From the NCBI RefSeq assembly GCF_029873635.1, contig NC_080425.1:41109390-41173389 (forward strand): a stretch of DNA of 64,000 nucleotides, written 5' to 3'. The position numbers and the translations under genes were made by a program. The notes beneath the pieces were generated by a model. That model was not told the DNA's origin. It did no database searches and saw only the letters and a list, made by a program, of their open reading frames with translations. Shown in pieces: positions 18,898 to 54,612 of the stretch (positions within the stretch are counted from its first letter, which is position 1; every line of letters begins with the position of its first letter). The stretch comes from Malania oleifera. Its lineage: Eukaryota; Streptophyta; Magnoliopsida; Santalales; Ximeniaceae.

Positions 18898-18928
<31 letters not shown>

Positions 18929-22508: not shown

Positions 22509-22561
22509 CCCAATCTTTAGAAAAAACGTCTAAGTCAATGCTACGACGCTCTGATACCAAT

Positions 22562-29268: not shown

Positions 29269-29277
29269 TATATATAT
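29269..29277 (+). promoter_or_regulatory. Probable TATA box of element X LTR
   Basis: TATATATATG lies 100-120 bases after the palindrome array and is followed by GAGTTCATTTGCAC. The same layout is seen in other LTRs of the window. Confidence 0.55.
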
Positions 29278-30735
29278 GAGTTCATTTGCACAAATTAGGA
29301 AAGATTAGCAAAAAGGATTAAGCCAAAGCTCTCCCAAATTTCCAAATCCTATTTTGCTCATACTACTCTCATACACTCTCATACACCTATTCCTTTTATC
29401 ATCCAAGCTTTGTGAGAGTGCTTTGAGTGTTTATATTTCACTCCAATTTGCTTAAAACTCTCATTGTGTTATTTGTTAATTGATTTTGATACTGAGAGTT
29501 AAGCATAAGTTTTTCCACTAATTTAATCTAATAAATCTTGTGTGGGGAAAACTTAGTGGCTTATTGGTCTTTGCATTGATATTGCAAGTACCTTAGCCCA
29601 TATTTTTGTGTGCAAAAATATTTTACAAGCTTGATTTAAAACAACTCTTGTGCTTACTACATTGAGAAAATATTGTTGAGTTTGTTTGAACATTATTGTT
29701 TGCATCTTTGAAACACTAATCTGACATTGAGATTTGGTATACTTGGTTTTCAAAGAATAGCTTGTTTGAACACTCTTGTGTATATTTGAGATTATACATT
29801 ATACTGAGAATTATTTGCACATATACACTCTGAGCTTATTATTATTACATTATAGGTGTGCATTGATTATATTGTGCTTAGTGGTACATATCAACTTGTG
29901 TAAGAAAAATTTGGTTGTATGCAAATTTTCATACATTTGTTATATTCCAGGCGCAGGCCTGAAGAGGGAGACTAGGAAAGCTAAGTGCACGATCCTAGTA
30001 AGGTGCGGTTGTAGGTTGGGGTTAGTCCCGTTAATTGACCTGGTTGTAACAGGTGCCACTCCACCCATTAAGTGAGCATTAGTAGAATCCTCTAACTTGT
30101 GAGCTAAAGGCGGGGACCTAGGCAGTATTGGACGAACCCCGATAACATATCGTGTGTGCACTTTACATTTTTACAATTTATTTACTACACGTATATGTTT
30201 TATTATGAATGTTGCGGATGATTTAATTTCTGCATCTTACATTTATCTGTGCATTTGGGTTTGTTGACCTTATTGGTCATATCCTGTTTTGATTATTGCA
30301 AATACTATGATATCTAATGGTTAATGAGTTTGTGTGCAGGACTAATTGGAAGTATCATATGGTGCACGCACATCGGCTTAAAGCTTAAAGAAGACAAAAA
30401 CCCGTTTATGTTGTATTATAATTTATTCATTTATTTGGGTCTGTAATAATAAATAGGATATGGTCCGTAATATTTAATGCATTTCATGCATGTAGGAAAT
30501 ACATAGCTCAAAGACCATAGAATGACTCTAGGTCCCTACACATCTCCTGAAAATCAAATGACCATGGAGAGACTTGGAACACCCTTCAGTCGACCGACAC
30601 CGGATTTTTTCGGTGTCCTCAAAAGGACCTAGAAATGACCCTAGAATACTCACTATTGCTCATGTATGTGTCAGACTTTTGAATAGGGTGTTTGTTGCAT
30701 GAAATAGGACCGAAATGCACAAAATGTGCATACTC

Positions 30736-31055
30736 GGTGGATCGGACCATCAAGTATATTTTCAACCCGGTCGACCGAACTCGGTCCAAGTCAACAAGTT
30801 GACCACGTTCTCGTCTACCAAACTGTATAGTACAATTGGCCCTCGATTGACCGAACCTCCTAGGGAGTCAGTACTTTGACCTCCCGATCGACTGAACCAT
30901 GACAGTTCATTTGACCCTGGTCGATCGAAACCGCTTGAAGTCAACAACTTGACTTCCTGGTCGACCGAGACCTTTTTGAACTACACCAACCTAGTCGACC
31001 GCAACGGTTTAGTCAACCGACCAGGTAGTTCATTTTCACCCTAGCCGACCGAACC
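30736..31055 (+). repeat. GGTCGACCGAAC palindrome array in the solo LTR
   Basis: About eight to ten variants of the palindrome GGTCGACC with flanking GAAC lie here, for example near 30769, 30959 and 31042. The array lies 30-50 bases before the TATA-like site. Confidence 0.8.
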
Positions 31056-31087
31056 ATGCTATTTTTGAAAAATCGCCTTTCTATCTC

Positions 31088-31096
31088 TATATATAG
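31088..31096 (+). promoter_or_regulatory. Probable TATA box of the solo LTR
   Basis: TATATATAG precedes GGCTTCATTTG and follows the palindrome array directly. Confidence 0.6.
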
Positions 31097-31904
31097 GGCT
31101 TCATTTGTAATAATTAGTATGAGATTAGCCAAAATAATTAGCAAAAATTCTCTCAATCTCAAAACCTATTTTTGCCTATTTCACTCGAAATACTCACACA
31201 TACTCATCTCCTTGATACATCTTAGCATTGTGAGTATATTTTGTGTGCTAGTGTTTATTAGGTATTGCTAATACTCCCATTGTCTTGCTTGAATACTTAA
31301 TATTGATTTTGGGGAGTTTGGCATAGTTTATCCCACATATTTTTTATTGATAAAATCTTATGTTGGGATAAAAACATAAGCTTAAGGATCTTTGCATTTT
31401 CATTGCAAGATTCCCATAGCTTTATTTTTTATGTGCAAAACGTTTTACTAAACTAGATTTCAAACAACTCTTGTGCTTGATACAATTTGAGAAAATCCTT
31501 TTGATTTCGTTTGAATAACATTGTTGGCATCTTTGAAACCCTAAGCTTGCATTGAGATATTTTATATTGTGTTTCAAAGAAAACCTTATTTATACACTTT
31601 TGTGCATATTTAAGATTATCCATAATATTGAGTGTAGATTGCACACACACACCACTGAACTTATAGTTCCTACATATATGGTGTGGATTGATTATTGATT
31701 ATAATATGCGTAACTGGGTACATATCTGCTTTACATGAAAGCACAATCACTGTACCATTTGATTGAGCGAATATTGTTGTATTTCCAGGCGTGGCCTGAG
31801 GGGGTGGTAATCTAGCCCGATAAGGATTGTGTAGGTTGAGGTCAGCCCTGTGTTAATTGATCTAGTTGTAAAGGTTGAGGTTAGCCCTGTGCTAATTAAC
31901 TTGG

Positions 31905-32010
31905 TTGTTTAGGTGCCGCTCCACCCGTTAAGTGAATCTATAGTGGTAATCCTTGTGCTTGTTAACCAAGGCGGGGACGTAGGCAACTTGGCCGAACCTC
32001 GAAAACATTT
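31905..32010 (+). repeat. Conserved U5-side block of copia LTRs (solo LTR copy)
   Basis: It contains GTGCCGCTCCACCCGTTAAG, then a gap, GGCGGGGACGTAGGC and GGCCGAACCTCG. Related blocks occur in element A (16315-16445 and 22765-22895, minus), element X (30050-30150 and 47480-47570), the minus LTR fragment (41915-42010) and, in amplified form, element C (48250-48535). Confidence 0.75.
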
Positions 32011-32229
32011 TTGGGTGTCGTCTCGTTTACTACTTTATTGTGCATGCTTGATTAAATTTCCATTGCAATTTAAATTCCATTGTTTATTTGCATTGATTTA
32101 TTTTGCATGCACTAGATTGACCTTAGGCTTGTGTAATACTATTGATTAGTAGATTGACTTAGGGGATAAAATTTTTAAATACCAATTCACCCCCCCCCCT
32201 CTTGGGATTGCACCAAAGCTAACAGGGTT

Positions 32230-32349
32230 TATGAGTATATAAACAGACCCTAGGTTGAGTATTACTGCTTGTGAAATTGAAATCAACCTAGGAAGTTTTA
32301 AATACCAAATTCACCTCCCCCCCCTCTTAGGGATACACCAAAGTCAACA
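32230..32349 (+). repeat. 5' LTR of element X, right end
   Basis: TTATGAGTATATAAACAGACC through CACCAAAGTCAACA continues the LTR after the solo-LTR insertion and aligns with 47691-47805. The primer site ATTGGTATCAAAGC follows immediately at 32350-32363. Confidence 0.88.
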
Positions 32350-32402
32350 ATTGGTATCAAAGCCTCGTCGCATAAACTTAAACGTTTTTTCAAAAGATCG
32401 CA

Positions 32403-33467
32403 ATGGCTCAATTTGGTGTATCCCCATTCGGTGAAGGATAGTCACCTTCTAGGCCTCCTGTATTTTTTGGTGTCAATTACACCACTTGGAAAATTAGAAT
32501 GAGTGTATTTATAAAATCAATGAATTGGATGGCCTTTTGGGTGATTGTTAATAGGATTCGTATGCCCTTGAATGAAAATGATATTAGGTTAATGCATGTG
32601 AATTCATATGCCATGGACATGTTATATCTTGCATTAGATTCTAATATTTTTGTTGAGTTTGTGCCACGTCAGAGTGTAAAGAAAATCTAGGATGAACTCG
32701 CAAGGAAATATGGAGAATCTCGAGAGGATGAGACCACCACTCAAGAAGTGATAAATGATAGGGTAATTGGTTTATCAGACATTGAGGTATATGATTCTAT
32801 CTTAGCCTCTATTGATGATTTTTGTGTTGAATGTTGTGATATAACTTATGATAAATCATCTGTTGTTTTTTATGATACTACTGCATGCAGTGATTCATAT
32901 AATATTGATTATAAGAATACTTGTGATGAATCATGTATTGAATTTGATGTTGAAAGCATGCCTTCAAACAAAGAACTAGAATGCACTTTATCTAAAATGC
33001 ATAAACTTTTAGTTTAGATGTCTAAACAGAAAATTTTTTTGAAGAATGATAATAAGCAAGTGGCAAATTAGTTGAAAAAATTGAAAGAATATTATGCCAC
33101 TCTTGAAAATAAAAAGATTAAGAAAATATTGAAAATTATCTGCTTAGAAGAAGTAATGGATGATTATTCTAGCATAACACCCAAAGCTAAGAATGAAAGG
33201 AATTATCATGGTAAACCCTTAGAAGTTAAAAGAAGTGAAAGTTTCAAAAAGGGTTTATCTTACAAGACTTATTACCATGCCTCATTGAGTAAAAATAGAA
33301 TAAATGAGCACAATCTTTTATGTATATTCAATGCCTACTTATTTTGCAAAACTATGTGGCACGTATGGTTTAATTGTTTACTTAGAAGTGCCATAGGCTT
33401 AGAAAAAGAATTGAAATGGATAATCAGCAAAGCAAACCCCGTAGGACCTAAGGAAAAATGGATTTAA
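32403..33467 (+). pseudogene. Sirevirus-like gag of element X
   Basis: One frame runs from the ATG at 32403 (MAQFGVSPFGEG) to the TAA at 33465 with no indel. Internal stops fall at about codon 13 (TAG), at 32688 (TAG where EIWDEL has Trp), near 33016 and near 33069. Domains: UBN2-type gag N-terminus (YTTWKIRM, NSYAMDMLYLALD), an acidic Ser/Asp-rich middle, a Lys-rich segment (KKIKKILKIICLEE) and a degenerate CCHC knuckle near the end (YLFCKTMWHVWFNC, first Cys replaced). It aligns end to end with the gag of element A and ends in ANPVGPKEKWI. No protease follows. Confidence 0.85.
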
Positions 33468-33980
33468 ATTAAATTTATCAAACTAGTAATTTTCCTTTAG
33501 ACCCAAGGATTAGATTTAGGGGCTAGTAATGTCAATAGGCTTGGGAGGTGGCTTTGGTTCAAAATATAGAAGCTTAGTATACATGTCCACTTCCAAATGG
33601 ACAGGGCAATTATGCTCGGTATATATTTCCAAATGCTTAACCCATGCTTAAATATAAATCTTTAAGTTAAGCCACTATTGTCCATTGCACAAGATTGAGT
33701 GTTAGGGATCCATCTTTTATCATATATAACTATACCCTAAACTCACTTTTGAATATGAAAAGCCTAAATCAAAATCAAGTCATCACTCTAGGCTTAAAGC
33801 ACTATTGATCGTAAATGATTAATATATATTAAGTGTGATTTTCATAAGACATCTTGTTATAATCAATAATAGAGGAAACCACTAAGGGATTCAAATAATT
33901 AAATCAAAATATTTCCTTGGAAATTAAAATATAAAAATCCTCTATTTTGGTTCACCATCCCATCCATAGGAAATCCTTAC
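33468..33980 (+). other. Non-coding internal DNA of element X, first part
   Basis: AT-rich, stop-laden sequence matching element A at about 20765-21350 on the opposite strand. It ends at the insertion site of the copia element, within GGAAATCCTTAC. Confidence 0.75.
33976..33980. other. Target site CTTAC of the pol-bearing copia insertion (right copy TTTAC at 41274-41278)
   Basis: The uninterrupted site in element A reads (on the minus strand) GGAAATCCTTACCAAACCACG. Here CTTAC precedes the left LTR and TTTAC follows the right LTR, with one transition. Confidence 0.8.
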
Positions 33981-35512
33981 GGAAATGAGGAATAGCTTCC
34001 CAAGAGGGGGGGTGAATTGGATTCTTTTAAATTTTAATGATTTTTAAGCCTTTGATTTTAATTACCCAGAAAACAAGATGTAGAAACAATACCCATACTT
34101 AAAAATACTGAAATTTAAATACACAACTCAATTAATGAAATCAAGATAATTCAATCACTCAACCAAGAATATTAGAGTTTTTGTTGATTTCCCTATAAAC
34201 TCTTAGTATGCACTTTACTTGATCAAGATTTCCGCAGATTAACCAACGTACTCCCTTTTTGGGTTTCCGCAAACAATTAATCAAAACGTACTTTTTAAAT
34301 ATCAAGTACCTTTGTTTCTTTCTCACTTAAGAACCTGCAACCTACATTTTTAAGTCATACAACAATAGTAAGTGAACTAGAGAGAAAGACACAAAATTTT
34401 TACGAGGTTTGGCTTCAACACAGCCTACATCCTTGCCTTTGGCAAAACACCAAAGAATTCCACTATATCAGTTCCGTTACCTGGTGGAACAACACCTATT
34501 TACAACCACTCCTTTTGTTAGGATAGAGCCCGCCTCTCCAAACAACAATCCCTTGTTTGGTCCAACAATTCAACAGCTGTGAATCGTCTAAGAATGATGA
34601 TAAAGAAATTTTGTGTACAAAAGAGAACTCTCACAAAAGAGTAAATTAGTACAATGATCAGCACACTTATACTCCATGGTAATTCGAATATAAGAAATTT
34701 GAAGTTCAATACTTAGTATGAATTACCAAATAATTTTTCAAAGAAAATGAAAGATTCTGATTTTTGAAAGCTTTGCTTCAAAGTATAAATCAATAGTAGA
34801 TAAGAAATTTAAGCTCAAAAGAGTTTTAGATACTTTGAGAATTTTGAATACTTGAAGATCGGTTGATCTAAAAACCTTTATAAAAGTTGCTTGATCTAAA
34901 AACCTTTGAAGATTGCTGGATCTGAAAACTTTTGAAGATTGCTAGATCTGAAAACTTTCAAAGATTGCTTAATTTCAAAAACCTTTGAATATTGCATCAA
35001 TGTTAAAATTTTTGAAGATTAGAACTATTTATGGATGTTTTAGAAGCCATCCATTACTCCCAAAGAATCCTAAAAATCATTTCCAGGTATGTTGAAATAA
35101 ATATGTCCAAAAACATGGTTTAAAAAATCTTCCCGTTGAGAGAATTAATGCAAACGTTCAAGCGACAGTTGCCTATCACAAAGCAAACTCTCAACACAAA
35201 ATGCTGGCAGTCGCCTGCCAGAACCAAGGCAGTCGCCTAGCTTGTTCGCGCAGGCGCTTGGCAGGTTAGGCAGTCGCCTATCTAGCTACTGACTTTTTGA
35301 AAAACCATTTTCTTAATGTGGTATTCGCCTGGCCCTTCATTATTTCAAAAAGTTTTCTTTTCTTAAACTCTTTCTTTTTATTGATTTAAAAAATATTCTT
35401 TAGAGTATATATATAAAAACATATTTTTGAATTTCTATGAGCTTCAGACCACTTTATACTTGAGATTAACTTTGAAGTACTTACATTTAGAATATCTTTG
35501 AGAAAAAATAAT
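33981..35512 (-). repeat. 3' LTR remnant of the pol-bearing copia element
   Basis: It matches the 5' LTR from 39507 to about 41013 and then stops. The about 260 bases of LTR that should begin with TGTTGACCTAATAAGG, the purine tract and the last RNase H codons are all gone. RNase H sequence (PVSHSRI) is joined directly to LTR interior at about 35510. It contains a local array of GCAGTCGCCTGGC motifs at 35160-35330. Confidence 0.85.
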
Positions 35513-36720
35513 TCTTGAGTGAGATACTGGATTTTTTGAGATATTGATAGCACTTGTGTTGTCACATTTGATAGGAATAGTTTGGTATTGTATGTGAAAA
35601 TCTTTTAATTGCTATTTCATATACAATGTTTGTGCACAACAACTTCCTGCAGCAATGTATTCTGCTTCTACTGTGGATAATGCTATAGAGTTTTGTTTCT
35701 TTAAAGACCATGAAACTAAAGAATGTCCTAGAAAATGACACGTTCCACTTGTACTTTTTCTATCTATTTTTCATCCAGCAAAGTCTGCATCTGAATAACT
35801 AATCATTTCAAATTCGGATTCCTTTGGATACCATAATCCTAGTTCAAGTGTGCCTAATAGATATCTAAGGATTCTTTTGACCGCTGTTTGGTGTGATTCC
35901 TTAGGAGCTGATTGAAACCTTGCACACATACATACACTAAACATAATATCTGGCCTACTTGCTGTTAAATAGAGTAAGCTTCCTATCATCCCTCGATAGT
36001 GCTTAGTATCAACTTGTTTCCCTTTTTCATCTTTGTCAAGATTAGTTGAAGTACTCATAGGAGTTCCTATAGGTTTACTTTCTTCCATGTCAAACTTTTT
36101 TAACATATCTTTAATGTATTTAGTTTGATTTACGAAAGTTCCATTTTTCACTTGTTTGATTTGTAATCCAAGAAAGTAATTTAATTCTCTCATCATGCTC
36201 ATCTCAAACTCTTTTGGCATACATGTGGGAAATTCTTTACATAGATCTTTATTTGTAGCTGCAAAAATAATATCATCCACATATATTTGAACTAATAGCA
36301 TATCTTTGTTTTTAGTTTTAATGAATAAGGTACTATTAACCTTTCCTCTTGTAAATTCATTTTTAAGTAAAAATTTTACTTAACCTCTTATACCAAGCTC
36401 TTGGAGTTTGTTTCAAACCATAAAGGGCTTTTGTCAATTTGAATACATGGTTTGGATTTTTAGAATTTTCAAACCCTGGAGGTTGCTTGACATATACTTC
36501 TTCATTTATATATTCATTTAAAAATGCACTCTTCACATCCATTTGATATAACTTAAAATTCTTATGGGCTGCATAGGCTAAAAGCATCCTAATAGCTTCC
36601 ATCCTTGCCACAGGTGCAAAAGTTTCATCATAATCAATTCCTTCTTCTTGATTATACCCTTGTGCCACTAGCCTAACTTTATTTCTTACAACAACTTCAT
36701 TTTCATCCTTCTTATTTATA
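35513..36720 (-). pseudogene. Copia reverse transcriptase and RNase H (pol-bearing element)
   Basis: RT begins at about 36720 ([19 protein letters not shown]), with the palm segment MDVKSAFLN at about 36520-36550. A one-base insertion near 36370 shifts the frame. The catalytic YVDDIIF lies at about 36270-36295 and is intact. The thumb and RNase H follow (RGMIGSLLYLTASRPDIMFS, SYSDADFAG). RNase H continues in broken form to PVSHSRI at about 35515 and is truncated there. Confidence 0.9.
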
Positions 36721-37810
36721 ATTGATTTATCTTTGGGTTTTGGTATTAGTTCTCATACTTGACTTCTTTCAAATTGATTTAATTCCTCTTGCATAGCTGT
36801 AATCCAAGAATCATCATTTAAGACATCTTCAACATTTTTTGGTTCATCTTAGTATAAAAAGGCATAATGATTACAAATATTTTTTAATGAGACTTTAGTG
36901 GTTATTCCTTTTCATGTTTCACCAAGAATTTGTTCTTTTGGGTGATTTTTGTCATATTTCCACTCTTTAGGGAGTTCCAGATTCTCTGAAAAGTTTTTAT
37001 TTAGAGCATCCTTATTCTTTTCTTCTTTTATTTCAAGAACTTCTTCCTTTTGTGAAGTGACTTCTTTTTCATCATTCATATCTTTAATGCTATAATGATT
37101 TGATTCATCAAAAGTTATATGAATTGATTCCATAATTGTAGAAGTTCTTTTATTATAAATCCTATAAGCTTTGCTATTTGTAGAACAACCTAAGAAAATG
37201 CCTTCATCTGTCTTTGTATCAAATTTTCCTAAATCATCTTTAGTATTTAATATAAAGCATTTACACCCGAATACATGAAATTAGGATATATTAGGTTTTC
37301 TATCTTTCCAAAGTTCATATGGTGTTTTATCTATTTTTGATCTTATTGATACCCTATTTACAATATAACATGCTGTATTTACAGCTTCTACCCAAAAATA
37401 TTTAGGTTGACTATTTTCATTGAGCATTGTTCTTGCCATTTCTTGCAAAGTTCTATTTTTCCTTTCAACAACTTCATTTTGTTGTGGAGTTCTAGGTGCT
37501 GAAAAATTGTGAGTTATTCCATGTTCATTACAAAATTTATCAACTTCCTTATTTTTAAACTCTCTTCCTTGGTCACTTCTAAAGCTTGTTACATTATAGC
37601 CTTTCTCATTTTGTAGTTTCTTGCATAAGGTTATTAATTGGTTACAAACTTCATCTTTGTTTGCTAAAAAGATTACCCAAGTAAATCTTGAAAAATCATC
37701 TACTATTAGAAAAGCATATTATTTTCCACCTAAGCTTAAGGTTCTAGTTGGATCAAACAAGTCTAAGTGTAGGAGTTCTAGGGGTCTTCTGGTGGATATG
37801 AATTTTTTTC
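36721..37810 (-). pseudogene. Copia integrase core and C-terminal region (pol-bearing element)
   Basis: Reading down the minus strand in the frame set after a shift at 37801-37810 gives HLDLF, then IVDDFSRFTWVIFL, FRSDQGREFKN, and NEVVERKNRTLQEMA, so the D, D and E residues are present. The shift lies in an A run (plus strand TTTTTTT) and looks like a one-base indel. The usual Gly before VVERKN is Glu. A GKLEKFDTK-like C-terminal segment and an acidic, Lys-rich stretch (36912-37133) follow. Several TAA/TAG stops interrupt it. Confidence 0.87.
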
Positions 37811-39450
37811 TTTTTGAAATTTGTTCTTACTTGTTTTCCCTTTTGACAAGCATCACACATCTTTTCTTTTACGTACTTAATATTTGGTAATCCTTTTACA
37901 AGATTTTTCTTAGATAATTTATATAGTAGGCCCATATTGGCATGTCCTAATTTCCTATGCCATAACCAACTTACTTCATTCATAGCTGTTAAACAAGTTA
38001 TGTTTTGATTTGCTATTTTCTCAAGATTTATACAGTAAACATTATTTATTCTATGAGCCATAAACAAGGTTTCTTTATTTTTGGGATTCTGGATAACACA
38101 TTTTTCTTTCATGAACATTACTTCGAACCCTTTATCACTCAATTGACTAATACTTAAAAGATTATATTTTAGTCCTTCTACTAATAGCACATTATCTATA
38201 GTGAGTGAAGATTCTTTACCAATTTTTCCGATACCAACAATTTTACCTTTGGCATTGTCACCAAAGGTGATGTATCCCCCATCCTTTTGTTTTAAGGTAG
38301 TGAACTTGGTCTTGTCACCCGTCATATGCCTTGAGCATCTGCTATCCAAGTACCATTTGTCCGCTGTCGTTGTTGTCCTAAGGCAAACCTCTTCATCGTT
38401 TGCCATGAAGCATATATTTGCCATCTCTTGTTCACTTGATTCGGTTTTAGTTTCACTGGAGCTTGAGTCCTCCCAAGTAGCTTTCATTGCTTCCTTCTTT
38501 TTCTTCATGTCTTTCTTGAATAATGGACACTCCAGTTTAATATGCCCTGACTTTTTGCAATGATAACATATGGGTAGTTCATTCTTACCTTTATTTTCTT
38601 TCCTACTTGTATCTCCTTTTTCACTTTTCTTTTTGTAAAATTTTCTAGGAAACCTTTTATTTCTTCTATAGAATTTTCCTAGTCTCTTAGTAATGAATGC
38701 CAATTCATCTTGATCTAAGTCACTTGTTTCGCTTTCTTCTTCACTAGTGCTATGACTAGATGCTTTTAGAGCTATGGATCTTTTATGCTTTGGTTCAAGA
38801 CTCCTTGCTTTCAATGCCATTTTATATGTAAGAAGTGAACCTATAAGTTCATCCAAAGAAGTAGTCTTAAGGTTTCTACCTTCCGTGATAGTTGTGGCCT
38901 CTGGTTCCCATATTGAGGGTAGACCTCTTAGAATTTTTCTGATCATTTCATATGTAGTATAGGTTTTTCCTAAGGCACTTAAAGAGTTTATTATGTGAAT
39001 AAATCTGGTGTACATGCTTAATATTATTTCATCAGAATTCATTTTGAATGTTTCGTATTCACTTGTTAGCATGTCTATCCTATTGTCTCTAACATCAATG
39101 GTTCCTTCACAAGTTACTTATAGTTTATCCCAAATCTCCTTGGCTGTTTTGCAGGTCATGACTCGATTAAACTCATTAGCATCTAATGCACAATATAATG
39201 CATTTATAGCACTTGCATTTATTTGAAGCATTTTATAATCTAAGTCGGTCATGTCTTTCTTTTGTTTTCCATAAACTAACTTAGTGGGGATAAGATTTCC
39301 ATCCATAACAACTTCCCAAGCTTTCCAATCCATGTGTTGGAGATATATTTCCATTCTCTTTTTCCAAAAAGTGTAATTGTGTCCACAAAAAATTAGCGGA
39401 CGGGTTGAGGATTGTCCTTCACCAAAGGGTGCTACTCCAATGTTTGCCAT
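37753..39450 (-). pseudogene. Copia gag, protease and integrase zinc domain (pol-bearing element)
   Basis: The frame starts at the ATG at 39448-39450 (MANIGVAPFGEGQ). A CAA to TAA stop at 39118 lies between KEIWDKL and VTCEGT; the frame is otherwise open to 37753. Gag domain: UBN2-type body, then RSIALKA and an acidic run, zinc knuckle CYHCKKSGHIKLEC at about 38520-38565. Protease: WYLDSRCSRHMTGD at about 38325-38365, where the usual DSG is DSR (GGA to AGA), which should abolish the active site. Integrase zinc domain: WHRKLGHANMG and CDACQKGK at about 37830-37970. Confidence 0.92.
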
Positions 39451-39506
39451 TAGATCTTTTTATAGTTTCTTGTTAGGAATTTTTATAACTAGGCTCTAAT
39501 ACCAAT

Positions 39507-41273
39507 TGAAATGAGGATAGCTTCCCAAGAGGGGGGTGAATTGGATTCTTTTAAATTTCAATGATTTTTAAGCCTTTGATTTTAATTACCTAGAAAACAA
39601 GATGTATAAACAATAACCACACTTAAAAATACTGAAATTTAAATTTACAAGTCAATTAATGAAATCAAGATAATTCAATCACTCAACCAAGAATATTAGA
39701 GCTTTTGTTGATTTCCCTATAAACTCTTTGTATGCACTTTACTTGATCAAGATTTTCGTAGATTAGCCAACGTATTCCCTTTTTGGGTTTCCGCAAACGA
39801 TTAATCAAAACATACTTTCTAAATATCAAGTACCTTTGTTTCTTTCTCACTTAAGAACCTGCAACCTGCATTTTTAAATCATACAACAATAGTAAGTGAA
39901 GCACAGAGAAAGACACAAGATTTTTACGAGGTTCGGCTTCAACACAACTTATGTCATCGACTTTGGCAAAACACCAAAGGATTCCACTATATCAGTTCTG
40001 TTACCTGGTGGAACAACACCTATTTACAACCACTCCTTTTGTTAGGCTAGAGCCCGCCTCTCCAAACAACAATCCCTTGTTTGGTCCAACGATTCAACAG
40101 CTCTGAATCATCTAAGAATGACGATAAAGAAATTTTGTGTACAAAAGAAAACTCTCACAAAAGAGTAAATTAGTACAATGATCAGCACACTTATACTCCA
40201 AGGTAATTCGAATATAAGAAATTTGAAGCTCAATACTTAGTATGAATTACCAAATAATTTTTCAAAGAAAATGAAAGATTCTGATTTTTGAAAGCTTTGC
40301 TTCAAAGTATAAATCAATAGTAGATCAGAAATTTAAGCTCAAGAGAGTTTTAGATACTTTGAGAATTTTGAATACTTGAAGATCAGTTGATCTAAAAACC
40401 TTTGAAGATTGCTGGATCTAAAAACTTTTGAAGATTGCTAGATCTGAAAACTTTCAAAGATTGCTTAATTTCAAAAACCTTTGAATATTGCATCAATGTT
40501 AAAACTTTTGAAGATTAGAACTATTTATAGATGTTTTAGAAGCCATCCATTACTCCCAAAGAATCCTAAAAATCATTTCCAGGTATGTTGAAATAAATAT
40601 GTCCAAAAACATGGTTTAAAAAATCTTCCCGTTGAGAGATTTAATGCAAATGTTCAAGTGACAGTTTCCTATCACAGAGCAGACTCTCAACACAAAATGC
40701 TGGCGGTCGCCTGCCAGAACCAAGGCAGTCGCCTGGCTTGTTCACGCAGGCGCCTGGTAGGTTAGGCAGTCGCCTGTCTAGCTACTGACTTTTTAAAAAA
40801 CCATTTTCTTAATGTGGTAGTCGTCTGGCCCTTCATTATTTCAAAAAGTTTTCTTTTCTTAAACCCTTTCTTTTTATTGATTTAAAAAATATTCTTTAGA
40901 GTATATATATAAAAACATATTTTTGAATTTCTATGAGCTTCAAACCACTTTATACTTGAGATTAACTTTGAAGTACTTACATTTAGAATATCCTTGAGAA
41001 AAAATAATTCTTTTAGTCTTCAGTCTTATTCTTCCATCATCTTTGGGGTTGCAATCTTTCCTTTGAACTTTTCACAGTATAACTTTGTTGTTCATGCTCT
41101 TTATAATCCATAAGCTTTACTTTGTGTTCTTCAAGGATTCTTTGTAATCCATAAACTTCCTTATGCACTTGAGTTTTGTTATTTTCTTGAAAAACTTTTA
41201 CTTGAAACATATTAAACATATCATTTGATTTGTTATCATCAAAATAAGAATTGTAAGCCTTATTAGGTCAACA
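39507..41273 (-). repeat. 5' LTR of the pol-bearing copia element
   Basis: 1,767 bases, plus-strand ends TGAAATGAGGATAGC and TTAGGTCAACA. The interior carries GCAGTCGCCTGGC-type motifs at 40670-40825 and a TATA-like region. The primer site abuts its left end. The left LTR lacks the part beyond about 41013. Confidence 0.88.
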
Positions 41274-41278
41274 TTTAC

Positions 41279-41800
41279 CAAACCACGTTTATATTCAGTA
41301 AGGTCCCTTCCACTCACCAGCCTATATCCTTGCCTCATAATTATAATTATATCTAAAGGATACATACCACTGTCCAAAAAGCTATATTCAAAAATTCATA
41401 CTCTCCTAGATGCTCTTTGCTTATATCTGGACATGATTACTAAGCACGAAAATATTTTGGAAAATGTCCACCCATTCTGAATGCTCTTCTGAACTCAATA
41501 ATGATTTTATTGTTAAGAGTGTTTAAATTATCTTCATAAGCTCTCAAACTTTAAATCAAATAATTTAGAGCTTCATCTTTGTGAACCTTAAATGGATAAT
41601 ATAATTGCTATAGGTTTCAACATATATGGAAATGCAAATGACTAAGAAACCTATGAATGAATTTTAAAAATGAAAAGCCATCTGAACTCGTGCCTTTCAC
41701 ATATTGAAAATCATAAGAAAAGAGGCAGACATAGGCTTATTCCTTAACGAATAGTCATTGTGACTTTTTGGTTCGATAAGCCTAAAGCATTCTTTGCAAC
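41279..41800 (+). other. Non-coding internal DNA of element X, second part
   Basis: This continues the element A-like sequence after the copia insertion (CAAACCACGTTTATATTCAGTAAGG onward) and ends near AAGCCTAAAGCATTC, where an LTR fragment begins. Confidence 0.7.
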
Positions 41801-43863
41801 CTTATGGTCAATCTAGTGCAAGTAATATAAATATATCAGAAATTAAATGAAGCGATTTAATTAACTACACATGCACTAGAAAAACAATAAAGTAAAAGTG
41901 ACACACATAAATGTTATTGAGGTTCGGCCAATTGCCTACATCCCCGCCTTAGCTAACAAGTACAAGGATTACCACTATAATTGCTCACTTAAATGGGTGG
42001 AGCGACACCTATACAAACTAGGTCAATTAGCACAAGGCTGACCTCAACCTTTACAACAATCCTTATCGGGCTGGATTACCGCCCCCTCAGGCCACGCCTG
42101 GAATCACTTAGATTTACAATTAAATGGTACAATATAAAAGTGCTTTCACGTAAAGCAGATTTGTACCCAAATGCGTTCAATCATATACACGACAAATGAT
42201 TTAATATGTAAGCTCAATGTGGTCCAATAGTTCAACTCTCAAATGTATTTTCTATCAGTGTTGTGAGTACGTGAGAGTGTCAAAAACAATCTGTGTATCT
42301 CAAAATATTCAATCAAACATGTTCACACAAAATATCAGTGAGTTTCAAGTATGTCAATCAATAGGATGTCTCAATCCTGAATATAGTGTATATGCTTGGT
42401 TTGCAAAAGTTATGCAATCTTTGTATTCAGAAAATGATATATACTTGAATAAATAATGCCACAAAGATTAATATAACAAACACAAATATTTGTTCACAAA
42501 TATATCAATATAGATTCCACAAGATATTTGAGTAAATTTGAAAATATTTTTGCAAGCCAAAAAAAATTACAAGCTTCCTAAGATATTGCAATACGAATGC
42601 AACACTCTGAAGCTTAGGTAAGTCTTCTTAGGATAGGCTTATGAGCAAAGGCCCCTAAGAACACTTAGGTTTAGCTCTTAATGAAAAATCAATTCAATCA
42701 CAAGTAATGAGAGAGCAAACCTAATTACAAAAACATTCAAGACACTTACAGAGGATTTAGGAGATAGAGAAGGTAAGTTTGAGTGATTTTGAGAAAGAGT
42801 ATGAGTAGTAGAACATATTTTTCTTGAGAGAAAATTTTGGATTTTTGTTTGCTAATCAAGTTGCTAATTTTCCCAAATGAAGGGGTATATATAGACATCC
42901 CATGAATTATGATCGTTGGGGACATGGTCAGCATTATTAGAAAAGATTAATGGTATTTTAATTAATTTAACCCTGTTTAAAACATTTTAACCATGGTAAA
43001 AAATTAGGGCAACCCGAGAGGTCCGGTTGACCAAAAACCATTTTAGTCGACCGAAGTTCATATGGTTCGGTCGACCAGGTCATTTTTGAACTTGGGACTT
43101 GGTCGACCAAAAGTGCATGTTCTAAGGGTGATTTTTCATTTTACCGAGGTTCGGTTGACCAGGCCATTTTGAATTGAATGGTTCAGTCAACCAGACAGTT
43201 GGAATTTCTCCCGAGGACCCTCGGTCGACCAGGTAGTTGGTATTCAATTTTGACTCGGTCGACCAGGTGATCAAATTGTTGACCTCAGGAGGGTTCGGTC
43301 GACCAGGGGATTTGAACTACAATGATTCGGTCGACCGGGATATTGGTCAACTGTTGACCCAGACCAATTTCGGTCGACTGGGGCAGAATGAACTGCCTTA
43401 GTTGGTCAACCGAAAGTGTACAATGTGTGTATTTTGGTCCTGTTATGATTCACTCAAACCCTAATCAAGTGTCTAACATTCATAGGTGCAATGGTGAGTG
43501 TCCTAGGGTCATTTCTGGGTCCTTTTGAAGACACCAAAAAAATATGGTGTTAATCGACCGAACCCTAAGGTCATTCTAAGGTCATTTTTAGTTTATGGTT
43601 GGTTTGAGCTTACCTATTAGATCATGCATGTGATGTGTGTGATCTTATTAAAAACCAATCCCTATTTACTATTACAGACCAATTTTGCAAATGAAATATA
43701 TATTACAGCACAGAATATAAATTGGTATTCAATCTTCATTTGTTCCATGTGCATGTGCATTATGATATTGACAATTTAGGTTCCTGCACATAACCTCAAA
43801 TACCCATTAGATACAATGAGCATTTGTCATAATCAAAACTGGGTGTGACCTATAAGGTCAACA
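41801..43863 (-). mobile_element. Truncated copia LTR inserted in element X (minus strand)
   Basis: The minus strand begins TGTTGACCTTATAGGTCACACC at 43863, the LTR start of the same broad family. Its other end lacks about 100 bases, and about 30 bases of element X are missing at the left junction, so no TSD can be read. It contains the U5-side block at 41915-42010, a TATA-like TATATATAG context near 42886-42895 and the strongest palindrome array in the window at 43005-43410. Confidence 0.82.
43005..43410 (-). repeat. GGTCGACC palindrome array
   Basis: About twelve copies of (T)TCGGTCGACCAG or close variants lie at roughly 25-45 base spacing, for example near 43068, 43226, 43257, 43297 and 43330. 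The intervening DNA is not itself a simple tandem repeat. Confidence 0.85.
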
Positions 43864-45054
43864 CTTGGCTATAGAACTTGAAAAAGCAAAAGGCATAAAT
43901 GGATAAGTGCATAACTCAGGGGGAGCATATATTCTTTCATGGTTATATTACTTAAAATGCTCTCATAATTCTTGTTTTATGCCTAAATGTCCATATGAGT
44001 ACTGCATTGAATTCCTAACTATCCACGGTCACTTATTGTTCATGTTATCTTGTTGGATGGTTTACATTTTCTATGGACTGTTGATTGTACTATTGGATTG
44101 CATGCGTAGTCTAGAATGCATCCTGCATGGTAGATGTAGTGGATGTGAATTGCATGCTGGTAGTAGAAATAGGTTCTCGCATGCTCAAATTGAATTATTT
44201 TGAATTGATTGCTGGAATCTATTAGGTTTTGATGCATGAAAATTTGGAAAATGTTCAATTTATTGACGACATGCTAGCGAAAGTTCAGTGGAATTTTCCC
44301 AAAACAAATCCATGTACAAAGATGATTATGATAATAAAAATGTTAAAATATTTTTGAAAGGATGAGTGAAAACTTAAATAGAAATATAAAAGCTTCATCC
44401 TAGCATAATCATCAAACATTTAGAAAGGCTCAGATCCATCCCTAGTAAAAGAGCTTAATGGATTCATATGCATCAATTCACATTCTTGAATATTGAGGCT
44501 CTTCAGAAAACCTTAAATATCATATCCAGTGCTTAAATGTTTATGAATAGATATGGATTGTTCTAGGTTATGAGTGATTAGTTCATGCCTTAATATATTT
44601 TCTAAGATGCAACTGTGGCCTATAGGGATGACCATACTAATCATAATATAGTTGATAAATCATTAGTATAGTTATTTTAAAAGATTTAAATTGATAGGCT
44701 TACACTACTAGCATAATGAAATTTGTCTTTAACTAGTATAAGCAGTTTATTGCATTTAAGCTAGGATTTCAATCGAAAGGGGGAGCATCTAGAATTAATT
44801 CCTACCCTGTTATGCTCACCAATATCTCTTAGCTTAGATCTTCTTTGAATCAAGTGTGGCATGTGCTTAAATAAAATGATCTTTGTAAAAATCTTAAGTC
44901 GATATATATTGCTTCGCCACATGTTGTTTGTCTTTGCCATATGATCTTGCATGTGACTGTTAAGATTTTCTTTGGCAAAGTATTGCTTGTATGATGTTTA
45001 AAGTTTCTTTTTCAGCAAGCACCCCCAGTACTTCTTGACAATATCATAAAGGGG

Positions 45055-45133
<79 letters not shown>

Positions 45134-45209
45134 CATATATATCTATTTACATATACTTTTTGGCAAGATCAAATTTCAAAACTAAACTCTTTATCTTTTT
45201 CCTTATTAT

Positions 45210-45299
<90 letters not shown>

Positions 45300-45742
45300 T
45301 TAAAAAAAAAACTGCATAACTGGTTCGATAACTACATATGAAAATGCATACGAACTAGTTAGATTGTTTTATGCTCAAACCTTCTATTCGGTATCATATG
45401 TCATATGTTTTAAAATCAAATCTTTTACGGGTCTTATGATATGATTTGAATTGCATGGTTTGTGGATAATTCTGGTCTAATCATGTTTGTTATGTCATTT
45501 TAAATTTGAATGACTAGTTATATTGTTTGTGTGCTTAATTGCTATATTTTTCAAAGACCAGTTATATTTTACATGCCCTTTTTGCTATTGCCAAAAGGGG
45601 GAGAAGTAGCAAAACTAGGTATTTGGGAAATGCTTGAGCTTTAAATTTCTTTACATTTCCTTATGCATACTTTCAGGGGGAGCCTTTCTTGGTTGTACCC
45701 ACTTTTGCATAAGGTATTTGTCGTCATCAAAAACAGGGAGAT
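43864..45742 (+). other. Non-coding internal DNA of element X, third part, with repeated purine tracts
   Basis: It resumes element A-like sequence at CTTGGCTATAGAACTTG. It has purine tracts CAGGGGGAGCAT (near 43917), AAAGGGGGAGCAT (near 44777), AAAAGGGGGAGAAG (near 45594), CAGGGGGAGCC (near 45675) and the last one AAAAACAGGGAGAT just before the 3' LTR. Matching tracts occur in element A on the other strand. It contains the inverted microsatellite pair at 45057-45296. No protein is readable. Confidence 0.75.
45057..45296. repeat. Inverted microsatellite pair: (AT)n(GT)n ... (AC)n(AT)n
   Basis: (AT) at 45057-45096 and (GT) at 45097-45130, an 83-base spacer, then (AC) at 45214-45260 and (AT) at 45261-45296. 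The right arm is the reverse complement of the left arm in order and composition, so the strand could form a hairpin with a stem of about 70 pairs. The Cys-Val and Thr-His/Ile-Tyr ORFs here are by-products. Confidence 0.95.
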
Positions 45743-47805
45743 TGTTGACCTTATACGTCATATCCTGTTTTGATTATGACAAATACTTTGGTACTTAATG
45801 TTTGCCAAGTTTGTGTGCAGGTTAATATTGGCATGATCACATGATGGCATGAGGTGACTTGAACAATAAAGACCCAGAATAGTCATATTTGTAATTTATA
45901 TTATGTTTAATTCGGGTATGTAATAGTAATATAGGAAATGGTCTATAATAATCTGCATATCATGCATGATAGGAACTGATAAGCTCAAGACCATAGAGTG
46001 ACCTTAGAGATTTTCAATCAATTGACGCCAGGTTTTTGGGACTAACTCAAAAGACCTTAGAAAGACATTAAGTCCTTGCACACACACTTAACACAGTCCC
46101 CAACATAACATATATTATCAGGGGAATTATTTGGCTTAAGTCTGGACTTAAAGGGTAAAAATAATGAGGCTTCGGGCTACCAAACTATAGTGTTCAAAAC
46201 ACTTCGGGTAACTGAACCCTTAACCAGTCAGAAGGTTGACTTGGTTTTGGGCGACCGAACCACTTTTACCGTAGCGTCCACGAGCAACCGAACCATTACT
46301 CTAACTTTTCCCACCAACTCGGCAGCCCAAACTTCACGTTCAAATTTGCCTCAGACTAGGGAACACATGAGTTTAGCAGACCGAACTCAGGACCGGGAGA
46401 CCGAATCGCAGTCTTTTGAAATCGCCTTCGGTTCAACATACTGAACCCTTATTCAGGCACCCGAATGTTCAAAAATGACTTTTTTCTGTTGTGTCTGTTT
46501 GGGCGACTGAACTTCAAGTCAGGCGCCCAAAACTTTCGAGTTGCTTAATTTTTCACCGTGGTTAAGAGGGGTTAAATGAGGTTAATTTTCTTAAGAAGAA
46601 TTAAATAATTTAATAATTCCCCTGGTGTCCCCCAATGGTCATAATTTGTTCCTTGCCTATATATATGAGTTCAGTTGCACAAATTAGGAGAGATTAGCAA
46701 AAAGGATTAAGCCAAAACTCTCCTAAATTTCCAAATCCTATTTTGCTCATACAACTCCCATACACTCTCATACACCTATTCCTTTGATCATCCAAGCTTT
46801 ATGAGAGTGCTTTGAGTGTTTATATTCCACTCTAATTTGCTTAAAACTCTCATTGTGTTATTTTTTAATTGATTTTGATACTGAGAGTTAAGCATAAGTT
46901 TTTCCACTGATTTAATCTAATAAATCTTATGTGGGGAAAACTTAGTGGCTTGTGGGTGTTTGAATTGATATTGCAAGATACCTTAGCCCATATTTTTGTG
47001 TGCAAAAATATTTTACAAGCTTGATTTCAAACAACTCTTGTGCTTACTACATTGAGAAAATATTGTTGAGTTTGTTTGAACATTATTGTTTGAATCTTTG
47101 AAACACTAATCTAACATTGAGATTTGGTATACTTGGTTTTCAAAGAATAGCTTGTTTGAACACTCTTGTGCATATTTGAGATTATACATTATACTAAGTG
47201 TTGCTTGCACATATACACCCTTGAGCTTATAGTTCCTACATTATAGGTGTGCATTGATTTTATTGTACTTAGTGGCACATATCAACTTGTGTAAGAAGCA
47301 TTTGTTGTACGTAAATCTTCATACATTTTTTGTATTCCAGGCGCAGGCCTGAAAAGGGAGACTAGCCTTGTTGAATAGTCCCGGATTGGGTTAGACTCGA
47401 TTAGGAAAGCTAGGTGCACTATCCTGGTAAGGTTCGTTTGTAGGTTGAGGTCAGCCCCATTAATTGACCTGATTGTAACTGGTGCCGCTCCACCCATTAA
47501 GTGAGCATTAGTGGAATCCTTAGGCTTGTGAGCTAGAGGCAGGGATGTAGGCAGTATTGGCTAAACTCCGATAACATATCATGTGTGCACTTTACATTTC
47601 TACAATTTATTTATTGCACGTGTATGTTATATTATGAATTTTGTGCCTGATTTAATTTCCGCATCCTACATTTATCTGCGCATTTGGGTTTATGAGTATA
47701 TAGACAAACCCTGAGTTGAGTATTACTACTTGTGAAATTGAAATAAACTTGGGAAATTTTAAATACCCAATTCAACTCCCTCTTGGGAATACACCAAAGT
47801 CAACA
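45743..47805 (+). repeat. 3' LTR of element X
   Basis: TGTTGACCTTATACG to CACCAAAGTCAACA, 2,063 bases, uninterrupted. It matches the 5' LTR, including the palindrome array (46165-46545), a TATA-like site near 46658 and the U5-side block (47480-47570). It is followed by the TSD TCCTT. Confidence 0.92.
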
Positions 47806-47902: not shown

Positions 47903-48323
47903 TGCGATCTTTTACAAAAATGGTTAAGTCTAATGCCACGAGTCTCTGATACCAAATGTGATTTTTGGTGTAATCTCAAAAAGGGGCGGGGGGGGGGGGG
48001 GTGAATTGGATATTTTAAAATTTGTATGTTAAATTAAAATCGAAACCAGTGTTACACAACCTAGGGTCTTTCTAATCAAACACAAATCAATCAAATATAT
48101 GAACTTTCAAATAATTTAAATAAGTATGACAGTTCAGGTATTTCCCAATCAACCACAAATCAGTATTGAAATGCAACTTTAGTAATCTCAACAGATAAAG
48201 ATAAACAAGCAAATACAGAAATGTAAAGAGTATAGGGAAAAAGTGACACTTGGTTTCTACGAGATTCGGCAAATCGTGCCTACGTCCTCACCTCAAGCCA
48301 ACCCACTTGAGGATTCACTATAT

Positions 48324-48535
48324 GCTCACTTAACTGGGTGGAGCGACACCGTTCACAAGTTCTCCTTACAGGGTGGAGTCCCCCTAACTCACTTACCGGG
48401 TGGAACCAAACTGTTACACCTTACAGGACGATGCCTTCCTAGCTCACTTAACTGGGCAGAGCTAAACCAGTTCTCTTTCCAGGACGGAGTCTCCCTAGCT
48501 CACTTACCGGGTCAAGCTAAACTGGTTCTCAGATA
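48324..48535 (-). repeat. Tandem repeats of about 55-63 bases in element C LTR
   Basis: Four diverged units each begin CTCACTTA(A/C)C(T/C)GGG and continue with a GGAGC/GGAACC-like part and ACAGG(A/G)(T/C)G(G/A). Their starts are near 48325, 48388, 48443 and 48499. They amplify the CTCACTTAACGGGTGGAGCG part of the conserved U5-side block, which is single-copy in the other LTRs. Confidence 0.8.
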
Positions 48536-49317
48536 TGAAATTATTGTGTGCAAATAAAGTGCTTCTACAATAAGCAAATGTGTACAATATTAAGCTTAAT
48601 GCACTCTTATATGATGGGAGTTTATGGTCAATAGAGTATTTTTTGTTTATCTCTCAAAAATATATTTATGAAATAATGTGAGAGATGATAATGAAAATGA
48701 TCTTTGATTCAAATATGAAATATTCACTAAGTGTATTTCAAAGATCAAAAACCCAAATAATATCTCCAAAAGTATTTTTAAAATATGAAGCGTAAGAGAT
48801 ATTGGATATTAGCTTATAAAAATATTTTTTTCAATAAACACAATATAAGCTTTTGAATCTTGCAATGGAATGCACAAAGATTCACTAGCTATAAGGAGTC
48901 TTCCCAAAAATATTTATCAACAAAATAATATGGGAAGAACTCAAAGCTTACTCTCAAAAATAATTATCAAAAATAAATGAATAAGTGAGAGTGTAAGCTT
49001 TTAGATAAAATGTATGTTCAAACAATCTTCAATTTGCAATAAATTTTCAAATGAAGAAGATAAATTAATGCTCTCTTTCTAAGATGATTTTGCTAATGAG
49101 TATAAGAAAGAGAATGAAAAATATGCTTGTATGTGTGAGAGTAGAAAAATAATTGCACAAAACATTTGAGAGAATTTCAATGCTAATCAAGTTGTTAATT
49201 AAGCTTATAAGTGGTCTATATATAGATTCTTGAAAAATTTTGACCGTTAGGGACACGCTGGACATTTTAGAATTTGTTTAATCAAAGAATTAATGATGTT
49301 TAGCGCTTAAATTTTGC

Positions 49318-49640
49318 CCAACCCGAGAGATCCAATCGACTAGGGGCTGCTTTGGTTGGCTGGCCTTAAGCAATTTTTCAAATTCCAGAGGGACCCGGTC
49401 GACTGGGCAACATTCCGCTTGGCTGGCCCTAAGTGATTTCCTAAATGTCCAAGAAATAGCCTACTAGCCTGATGATCCGGTCGACTGGTCTTTGAAGGTT
49501 GGTCGGTTCGGGATTTTCTGTTCTAAAATGGCTGGTTGCTTGGAGTTGTAGAAACTGGTCGAGTACTAAGGCCGGTCAGTCGGGGCTATATGACATTGCC
49601 CAAATGTTAAGGTCGGTCGACTGGGGCTTATAACACATAA
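49318..49640 (-). repeat. GGTCGACTGGG motif array in element C LTR
   Basis: About eight variants of CCGGTCGACTGGG/GGTCGGTCGGCTGGG lie here, for example near 49397, 49480, 49612 and 49646. The array lies about 105 bases upstream, in element sense, of the TATA-like site. Confidence 0.75.
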
Positions 49641-50289
49641 TGGGGTCGGTCGGCTGGGCTTAGTTAAACTAATATTTTAGCCCTGTTTTTTATCCAAAAA
49701 ACTTATCAAACCTTTGTGTATGAGTTATGGCATTTTAAATGGAGGGTTTTGGATCCTAAGGTTAGTCTATGGTCATTTTGAGCATCAAACCACATCATGT
49801 ATGATATGCATTATTATAGACCAAATTTAATGCAATGATAATTTAAATGAAAAAAATGTCTTCATTTTTCAACTCTTGCTCTTCACATTGCCATGTCACA
49901 CGCCAGGTGAATTAAGCTTTCAGTTCCTTATGACCTCCATTGTACCTCGACTCATCGTGCCTTCTAATAAAAATCTGTTCAAGCACTAGATGCACAAGTG
50001 AGATACTTAAGATTTGTCATAATCAAAATGGGACAGGACTCTTAAAGTCAACAATCTTGCATTATTACAAATTAAATATAAGACACGTGCCAAAAGGAAG
50101 GCCCAAATTCGCATGGGGTCTATGGAGTCATATGGGGCCCACATGCGTCTTGAGGTGGATCTTGCTTCACTTGGGTCTTCAAGCACCTAATAGTCTTGAA
50201 ACAACATATCCAAGCAAAATACAAAATCAACATAATTATAAAGTCTTCAAAAAAAGTCTTCCATCAAAAGTCTTCCAATAATCCCATGT

Positions 50290-53454: not shown

Positions 53455-53860
53455 AGTTGTGGGCGCGTGGGTTGTATTTTCTAAATGCAATAAAGGGCAG
53501 CCCACGCGCTTTGATCACATTCCAGTGGTACAAAGAGCAATACCAGAAGCGCACTTAGCATGCCCATGATTGGAGCACGTGAACCCCGTGGACCTCATCC
53601 TCTCCTCTACTTTTTCATTTCATATAATACATTATATTATATATATTCCATAAGATATAAAGTCATACGTACCACAAAGCATATATCATATCCCACTATC
53701 CCACACATTTTTATTTATAAATCCTCACCGTCCTTCCCCCCTTTACAATAATACCGATGACGGTCCAGATCTCCTCGCTTGTCCCTTCACAAAGCTCTTC
53801 GCTGTCACAACAACCGTCCGATCGCCTAGGGTTCTTATTTTCATTTCTTCTCTAACGAGA
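53455..53860 (+). promoter_or_regulatory. Promoter-like or 5' UTR-like segment, no gene identified
   Basis: Unlike its AT-rich surroundings this stretch has an inverted repeat GCGCGTGGG/CCCACGCGC (53463-53471 and 53501-53509), a CACGTG box near 53576, TTTATAAAT near 53710, and then a GC-richer, CT-rich leader with CTAGGGTTC near 53828. An ATG at about 53757 opens only 32 codons (MTVQISSLVPSQSS). It could be the 5' end of a lost or intron-split gene. No product is recognised. Confidence 0.25.
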
Positions 53861-54612
53861 AGATATGTGGAGCTACATTTTAATCTTCTTATATAATGTT
53901 GTTTGAGTTTGAGTGACCCAAAGGTGAAAATATCAAAGCCCAACGAAAGGGTAGGATTTTTGGCTCCGGAAATTACGGCACAGTGCTTGAGCGCCTGGCA
54001 AAGTCCAAACTTAAAGAGGCGGGAAGATTTAAGTATAGATAATATGCTTCCCGTTAAAATACTATATATATATATATATATATATTTCTCAAGAAATCTT
54101 TAGTGAAAGTCGAGTTTTGTCTCATTTCGTGAGCATGAAATAAAATGGGTTGACCTGAAATTCAATAGATAACCAACCATCAAATTAAATTTTATCTTAG
54201 TATTATGACTATAGAAATATCAATACAACTAGTTTTTTACTTATCACATGTTAATTATGCGCATTTAAATATTGTTAAGCACTATTTTGTAAGACTTATA
54301 TATATATTTAGTATTTTTCATTTATGCAACTTAAATTTAATCCTAAATTCATTAGATTATATATATAAAAAAAAAAGGTACATAACAAGCTGTAGTTTCA
54401 AACTTAATGACCTAATTTTATGTAATAAAATTTAGCATTTGTTGAGAATTCAACTCGTGAATTTGTCTCACATTGAAAAATTTGAGTAAATGATGGGTCA
54501 ATATATACATAGTTGGGTCCAAAACTCAATACGCTTAAACTTTTGGGTCAATTTAGTGTTCAATCATATGCATCAAGTCCATTTATGGATTCCTCCGATG
54601 CTAACACGTTTA

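Follow-up and report, generated by a model that had tools for sequence, protein, structure and literature searches.

Helically phased box arrays in the LTRs of Sirevirus-like elements: candidate sites of a one-faced DNA-protein assembly

We identified arrays of a repeated, quasi-palindromic box in the LTRs of nested Sirevirus-like elements, and the boxes cluster at a period of 10.5 bp in all seven LTR copies of families A, A', B, B' and D (A5, A3, A'5, A'3, B, B' and D; R 0.69–0.85, p 0.0003–0.0032). We think it reasonably probable that these arrays, the RM boxes of the Sirevirus U3 region, act as a one-faced DNA-protein assembly with shifting specificity. A dimeric DNA-binding factor would occupy the boxes cooperatively along a single face of the U3 DNA, and the occupied array would serve the LTR promoter as an enhancer. 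The words would track the specificity of the factor, with the boxes mutating separately under selection when that specificity shifts, and CpG methylation would be the likely off switch in silenced copies. If the register holds, the arrays are DNA-protein platforms, and small-RNA matches to them may be a by-product. The helical register also makes the role of the boxes directly testable. There are few lineages in this window, and the weight of the phasing depends on its replication in other genomes.

Elements in the window

The window is the whole 64-kb stretch that was analysed. It is plant-like, with a match to a TCP transcription factor at 57301–58941 (Pfam) amid nested LTR elements. The layout of the elements was obtained from self-comparison of the window and reading of the junctions. 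In the labels A5/A3, A'5/A'3 and C5/C3, the numerals denote the 5' and 3' LTR copies of elements A, A' and C.

16195–24589, minus strand: element A, Sirevirus-like, with LTR copies at 16195–18136 and about 22562–24589 and PBS ATTGGTATCAGAGC at 22548
about 26617–28175: F, an LTR-like stretch with RM-like boxes
28355–47805 (3' end approximate), plus strand: element A', host to the B, B' and C insertions, its ends placed from the LTR start and the poly-C signal
30262–32224, plus strand: B, a solo LTR within the A' 5' LTR, with GGGTT at both flanks (junction read by eye)
33982 to about 41250, minus strand: element C, a copia element in which Pfam matches gag, integrase and RVT_2, with a PBS-like ATTGGTATTAGAGCC at 39493
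41797–43863, minus strand: B', an LTR inserted in the internal region of A', with TATA at 42894
47957–50053, minus strand: D, a 5' LTR, followed by a PBS-like TTTGGTATCAGAGAC at 47943
near 62242–62830: E, an LTR fragment

The start of the C 5' LTR near 41250 comes from an arm match with four mismatches. A poly-C signal was not found in the B' LTR, whose 3' end is provisional. No pol was obvious among the listed ORFs of element A, and its internal region (18137–22547) holds a 212-aa ORF without a Pfam match. Element A is perhaps a non-autonomous Sirevirus-like element.

A Sirevirus LTR start was not found for F. We rejected F as a gypsy LTR, as its upstream ORFs, which may resemble gypsy gag, have no Pfam family at the family cut-off. 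A tRNA-Ser(GCT) gene was identified at 26113–26202, upstream of the F array, with a match to the Plastid-psbl-rps4 3' UTR family overlapping it on the opposite strand; this segment is probably an insertion of plastid DNA. The nested repeats at 398–16204, which include an 862-bp stretch in three copies and an SH3_Tf2-1 match, are probably gypsy-type elements.

The Sirevirus PBS is TATCAGAGC after CA-ATTGG (Bousios et al. 2010, BMC Genomics 11:89, PMC2829016). Among the elements to which this comparison applies (B, B' and E are solo or truncated LTRs), the match is exact in A (22548); A' (ATTGGTATCAAAGCC, 32350) and C (ATTGGTATTAGAGCC) have one mismatch, and D (TTTGGTATCAGAGAC) has two. Multiple AGGGGGAG octamers before the 3' LTR, followed by AT-TG, are another Sirevirus trait (PMC2829016). 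We identified four exact octamers in A' (43918, 44778, 45596 and 45675), two in A, none in C and two elsewhere (9681 and 62167), and the terminal PPTs are degenerate (CAGGGAGATTG, AGGGGAAGATTG). The poly-C integrase signal near the LTR 3' end, also a Sirevirus trait (PMC2829016), is exact to pattern in A5, B, C5 and C3, and has two mismatches in A'3 and four in A'5. A C-rich run is present in D, by eye, and the signal was not found in the truncated A3. Both arms of the PPT/3' LTR inverted repeat are present at the 3' ends of A and A' (0–2 mismatches), and the right arm occurs near the LTR starts of B (two mismatches), B' (one), D (two), E (three) and, weakly, C (four). Because this repeat is also found in almost half of classic copia elements (PMC2829016), it is not exclusive to Sireviruses.

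With PBS, poly-C signal and inverted repeat exact or near-exact, the junction sequences point to Sireviruses, which makes the boxes the "RM boxes" described by Bousios et al. (2010). The original prediction related them to the palindromes of Sirevirus LTRs, and this is borne out by the junction marks, by the same architecture and by a word from Vitis (see below). Its assignment of the LTRs to copia stands for C, by Pfam, and for A, A', B, B' and D, by junction marks; for F no Sirevirus LTR start was found, and the array of E is probably inverted. As RM boxes are termed Sirevirus-specific in passages of PMC2829016, the element class of F matters.

Box arrays

Eleven arrays were analysed.

17338–17716, minus strand: A 3' LTR array, 12 shared columns, words around CTCGGGC(G/A)(A/C)CCGAAC, TATA 17227
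23805–24175, minus strand: A 5' LTR array, 11 boxes, TATA 23681
26770–26930, plus strand: F array, 4–5 weak boxes upstream of TATA 27055
28770–29150, plus strand: A' 5' LTR array, 11 boxes, TATA 29268
30733–31055, plus strand: B array, 10 boxes, word type as in B', TATA 31087
35160–35335, minus strand: C 3' LTR array, 5–6 boxes by threshold
40670–40830, minus strand: C 5' LTR array, 5–6 boxes by threshold, word GCCAGGCGACTGCC
43005–43414, minus strand: B' array, the region originally flagged, 12 called boxes (11 in shared columns), most frequent sense word CCTGGTCGACCGA
46165–46545, plus strand: A' 3' LTR array, 11 boxes, TATA 46657
49318–49658, minus strand: D array, 10 shared columns (9 boxes called at threshold 8), words around CCCAGTCGACCGACC, TATA 49225
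62563–62713, minus strand (probable only): E array, 5–6 boxes

The boxes are variants of a quasi-palindromic superword around TTCGGKCGACCGAACC, on the sense strand about (C/T)TCGG(G/T)CGACCGAACC (weight matrix, 80 words). In A, A', B, B' and D the array begins about 400–470 bp into the LTR. The core is CGG-CCG in 10–12 boxes of A, A', B and B', and mostly CAG-CCG in the 9–10 boxes of D. Taking an RM array to hold at least 8 dyad-word copies, A, A', B, B' and D reach this number and C, E and F do not. In A, B and B', a lone box-like word precedes the first box of the array by about 150 bp (17856–17871, 24310–24325, 30585–30600 and 43547–43564). Isolated box-like words were also identified at 53815–54000 and 63335–63352, and may be remnants of further arrays.

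The gaps in E (20, 41, 21, 30 and 21) resemble those of the last six A boxes. Alignment scores of E on either strand are around the top of their nulls. Going by the flank sequence, this array has probably been inverted with respect to the start of its LTR.

To score repeated words, we took the best 12-mer neighbourhood on both strands and compared it with 200 dinucleotide shuffles per region. The repeated word exceeded all 200 shuffles in 10 of 11 regions, and the remaining one (35160–35330) was matched by a single shuffle; the 11 regions were the choice of the original prediction from 64 kb, and the comparison is uncorrected for that selection. Raw repeat scores reach up to 25, higher than in the arrays, in AT-rich or simple-repeat windows elsewhere, so it is the shuffle comparison that counts. 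By that comparison, boxes are present at all 11 predicted places. The two predicted weaker versions at 62565–62715 and 26770–26935 were recovered by a matrix whose training set was limited to 80 words from A, A', B, B' and D.

Perfect 8-mer palindromes exceeded all 500 shuffles in one of 11 regions (43005–43410), and CG-centred 10-mer palindromes exceeded all shuffles in two (43005–43410 and 40670–40825). In the remaining regions, some palindrome measures were at a nominal level and others at chance. The predicted palindromes are thus partly borne out, clearly so in one or two regions, and we rejected strict palindromy as the defining feature of the arrays.

Helical register

Every LTR copy of A, A', B, B' and D is phased, that of D among the best (R 0.85). 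The boxes of C are phased as well, with R 0.88 (p 0.0032) in C3 and R 0.86 (p 0.0138) in C5, and p is 0.0006–0.014 over re-calling of the boxes. In E, R is 0.73 (p 0.057, and 0.01–0.04 upon threshold re-calling); in F the clustering is not significant (R 0.60, p 0.22–0.25). An open scan of periods from 6 to 60 bp placed the top peak at 10.4–10.5 in A5, A3, A'5, B' and D. This period gave the second-ranked peak in A'3 (with 6.7 higher) and, at 10.6, in B (8.3 higher). Peaks for the other arrays were at 10.4 (C3), 10.3 (C5), 10.2 (E) and 11.2 (F).

Pooling six of the 11 arrays (A3, B', D, C3, E and F) in a scan of 8–14 bp gave a peak at 10.5 with a value of 4.61, compared with a null mean of 0.91, and 0 of 3,000 nulls reached it. 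When one array each of A/B/D, C and E was combined to represent the lineages, not one of 20,000 nulls reached the observed value, whichever of five choices was made. The phasing is stable at four box thresholds, and leave-one-family-out calling of boxes gave p ≤0.02 in 7 of 7 LTR copies at both thresholds. The main phasing threshold dropped one E box (score 8.0; included at threshold 6), and the main phasing set kept one A3 box outside the shared columns.

For phasing, A, A', B, B' and D count as one lineage, to which E probably also belongs. Near-multiples in the A and E spacings were noticed before testing, and C is therefore the only near-independent test. Outside the window no relative was found, either by protein or by pattern in viral_contigs, or in genome_contigs and plasmids; these are not plant-genome collections.

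The TATA box lies downstream of the boxes, as predicted, at distances wider than the 30–115 bp first given. From the end of the last box it is 31 bp away in B, 103 bp in D and 123–125 bp in A, A' and B' (7 of 7 LTR copies; range 31–125). In C the centre-to-centre distance is about 140 or 182 bp, by box threshold, and in F the TATA is 136 bp beyond the last box centre, as in A. In A, A', B, B', D and F the TATA departs from the face of the boxes by no more than 0.18 turn, and B and D keep this register despite their shorter box-to-TATA stretch. A universal TATA register was rejected, as that of C is out of phase by 0.34–0.44 turn.

Shared columns and descent of the arrays

An alignment of the seven LTR copies (A5, A3, A'5, A'3, B, B' and D; five families) has 12 common box columns, each occupied in 5–7 of the 7, with the caveat that the aligner may anchor on boxes and so inflate both the columns and the cross-family box identity. 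There are 16 groups in all, and the four with one or two copies each (at 602, 722, 767 and 1056) were excluded from the 12. The first gaps are 33, 43, 34 and 38 in A5; 33, 42, 34 and 39 in A3; 32, 43, 33 and 39 in A'5 and A'3; 33, 43, 33 and 41 in B; 32, 43, 32 and 40 in B'; and 33, 41 and 40 in D, where one box is missing. Those of C differ (51, 20, 21, 22 and 42). Spacing that had been described as irregular is instead common to families and helically phased.

We scored the spacers alone for a common register in 11 pairs out of more possible. Support was found for A-A' (p 0.0014 and 0.0086), and the other nine pairs gave p 0.04–0.33. Plain spacer identity is lower in the common register than in other registers in 8 of the 9 non-A-A' pairs. 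Outside A-A', therefore, it is spacing and the alignable LTR flanks that carry the case for shared descent. The LTR families are separate, as predicted, in that cross-family identity outside the arrays is 0.52–0.76 (8 pairs); the arrays of A, A', B, B' and D themselves appear to go back to a single array. Tandem duplication was rejected as the origin of the boxes, as spacers in other registers score about zero.

Common descent raises the question of whether the phase is inherited only, an ancestral array having happened to have these gaps with no constraint on helical phase. A, A', B, B' and D do share much of one spacing vector, and the arrays have taken up indels at rates no lower than their flanks, for which reason we rejected protection of the spacing from indels. 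However, C is phased too with other gaps, and the register is kept in the shorter box-to-TATA stretches of B and D. We regard inheritance only as unlikely, and prefer a one-faced assembly on the DNA.

Word difference between families

Position 6 of the box word is T in 20 of 21 boxes of B and B', whereas of the 23 boxes of A3 and A'3 one has T there and 17 have G (Fisher p 3.7e-10, in which the boxes are not independent events). One LTR each of A and A' was used here, avoiding double-counted pairs. Across 11 shared boxes, A3 and B' agree at this position in one. As G versus T is a transversion, the difference is not due to CpG decay or deamination. Over all 16 word positions, A3-B' identity is 0.64 within LTRs and 0.62 within shared columns, a small contrast, and the block change is therefore mainly one letter.

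Part of the lettering has thus changed together across boxes between families. The original statement that the same layout was reached with different words is misleading, for the words all vary a single superword, and A, A', B, B' and D have box columns and spacing in common. Turnover of a regulatory target is supported in narrower form, as a block difference at one word position that is small over all 16. Very short gene-conversion tracts could also have produced the block word change. Tentatively, the geometry of the array may be more constrained than its lettering, and word switching in place, upon a change in the specificity of the factor, may record an arms race between the retrotransposon and the host factor that it uses, a possibility that we rate as modest. 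The sites of PRDM9 and CENP-B offer a comparison for such an arms race.

Constraint and CpG decay

Between the LTRs of the same element, box cores are less alike than spacers in 2 of 2 pairs (A, 0.77 vs 0.90; A', 0.75 vs 0.90), whereas in all eight cross-family pairs compared (out of more possible) it is the spacers that are less alike. The lower identity within elements is in keeping, with caveats, with CpG decay of inserted copies. The cross-family result supports constraint on the boxes in active lineages, with the caveat that the aligner may anchor on boxes.

The CpG observed/expected ratio is 0.70–1.23 across the 11 regions, compared with 0.52 for the window. In the A and A' LTR pairs, transitions affect 19 of 66 and 17 of 52 array CpG positions, compared with 24 of 299 and 25 of 311 other positions. 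These values would fit boxes that serve mainly as CpG-island or methylation targets rather than as sites for a factor. But CpG positions of the flanks have changed too (11 of 54 in A, 9 of 36 in A'), as in any silenced plant element, and methylation targeting leaves the cross-family word and the register unexplained, the main position-6 difference being a transversion. We consider it very unlikely that the boxes are chiefly methylation targets.

RNA folding and W-boxes

In transcripts containing U3, self-complementary boxes could pair with one another and so supply small-RNA silencing, as has been reported for maize Sireviruses (Bousios et al., 2016). Compared with dinucleotide shuffles, folding is strong in B' (z -5.84), A3 (-5.21) and B (-3.23), with 0 of 100 shuffles as good, and in A5 (-3.53; 0 of 80). 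Folding beyond shuffles was not found in every array, and 4 of 11 lie below z -3. The other seven, at z -2 to 0, are A'3 (-1.82), D (-0.08), A'5 (-0.45), C3 (-1.46), C5 (-1.98), E (-1.24) and F (-0.12). The predicted silencing target, judged by RNA structure, is accordingly confined to B', A3, A5 and B. Pairing also gives no reason for a 10.5-bp DNA register, and D is well phased. Action at the RNA level thus seems rather improbable to us.

No A+T phase was found in the spacers of the eight arrays tested (those of A, A', B, B', D and E), and bent or nucleosome-phased DNA was rejected on this result. Strong folding in only four of 11 arrays, phasing of D without folding and the lack of spacer phase together favour a one-faced array of protein bound to DNA.

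Such a protein might be a WRKY factor if the boxes were stress elements of the W-box type (TTGAC). On either strand, TTGAC occurs eight times in B (expected 1.15), eight in B' (1.59) and five in E (0.56), with 0 of 300 shuffles each reaching these counts, and A'5 has four copies (7 of 300). No enrichment was found in 7 of 11 arrays (A5, A3, A'3, C5, C3, D and F), and a W-box enhancer for all families was rejected. TTGAC can also arise from TCGAC by deamination in T-type words. We find it highly doubtful that the boxes are W-boxes.

Comparison with known systems

Helically phased enhancers line up their sites along one side of the DNA, spaced by multiples of 10.5 bp, and usually combine several factors. 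Unlike these, the arrays here repeat one word 10–12 times, so the likeness is in working and not in membership.

Closer relatives are found in Sireviruses, which make up 21% of the maize genome (PMC10760457). The LTRs of maize Ji, Opie and Giepum are reported to have a palindrome-rich, highly variable regulatory region (Bousios et al., 2016), as here. That palindromic region is a small-RNA hotspot in the account of Bousios et al. (2016), whereas RNA structure here is not common to all arrays. In the passages of Bousios et al. (2010; PMC2829016) that treat RM boxes, repeated dyad words are given for 13 elements of monocots and eudicots, each element having its own word and all but one of the 13 showing a CGG-CCG signature (Table 3); whether the boxes have any role was left open. 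A layout with differing words had thus been published in 2010 beyond maize, and is not new here as the original prediction supposed.

The arrays here resemble those RM boxes in being mostly CGG-CCG dyads clustered in the upper half of the LTR, with a TATA shortly after, and in CpG richness (observed/expected values here, CpG islands in PMC2829016). The Vitis word CGGTCGACCG (PMC2829016) is the core of the B/B' word. Unlike the elements of that paper, the LTRs here are about 1.7–2.1 kb long, C lacks the strict CGG-CCG signature, and the distance from the last box to the TATA mostly exceeds the 37 bp given there from the CpG island. In the titles and abstract openings searched, we found no published report of helical phasing in Sirevirus boxes. 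The passages of PMC2829016 are silent on box spacing, helical phase, shared columns and block word change, all four of which are present here. Thus, we conclude that the arrays are further examples of Sirevirus RM boxes, to which phasing, shared columns and the block word difference are, relative to those passages, new additions.
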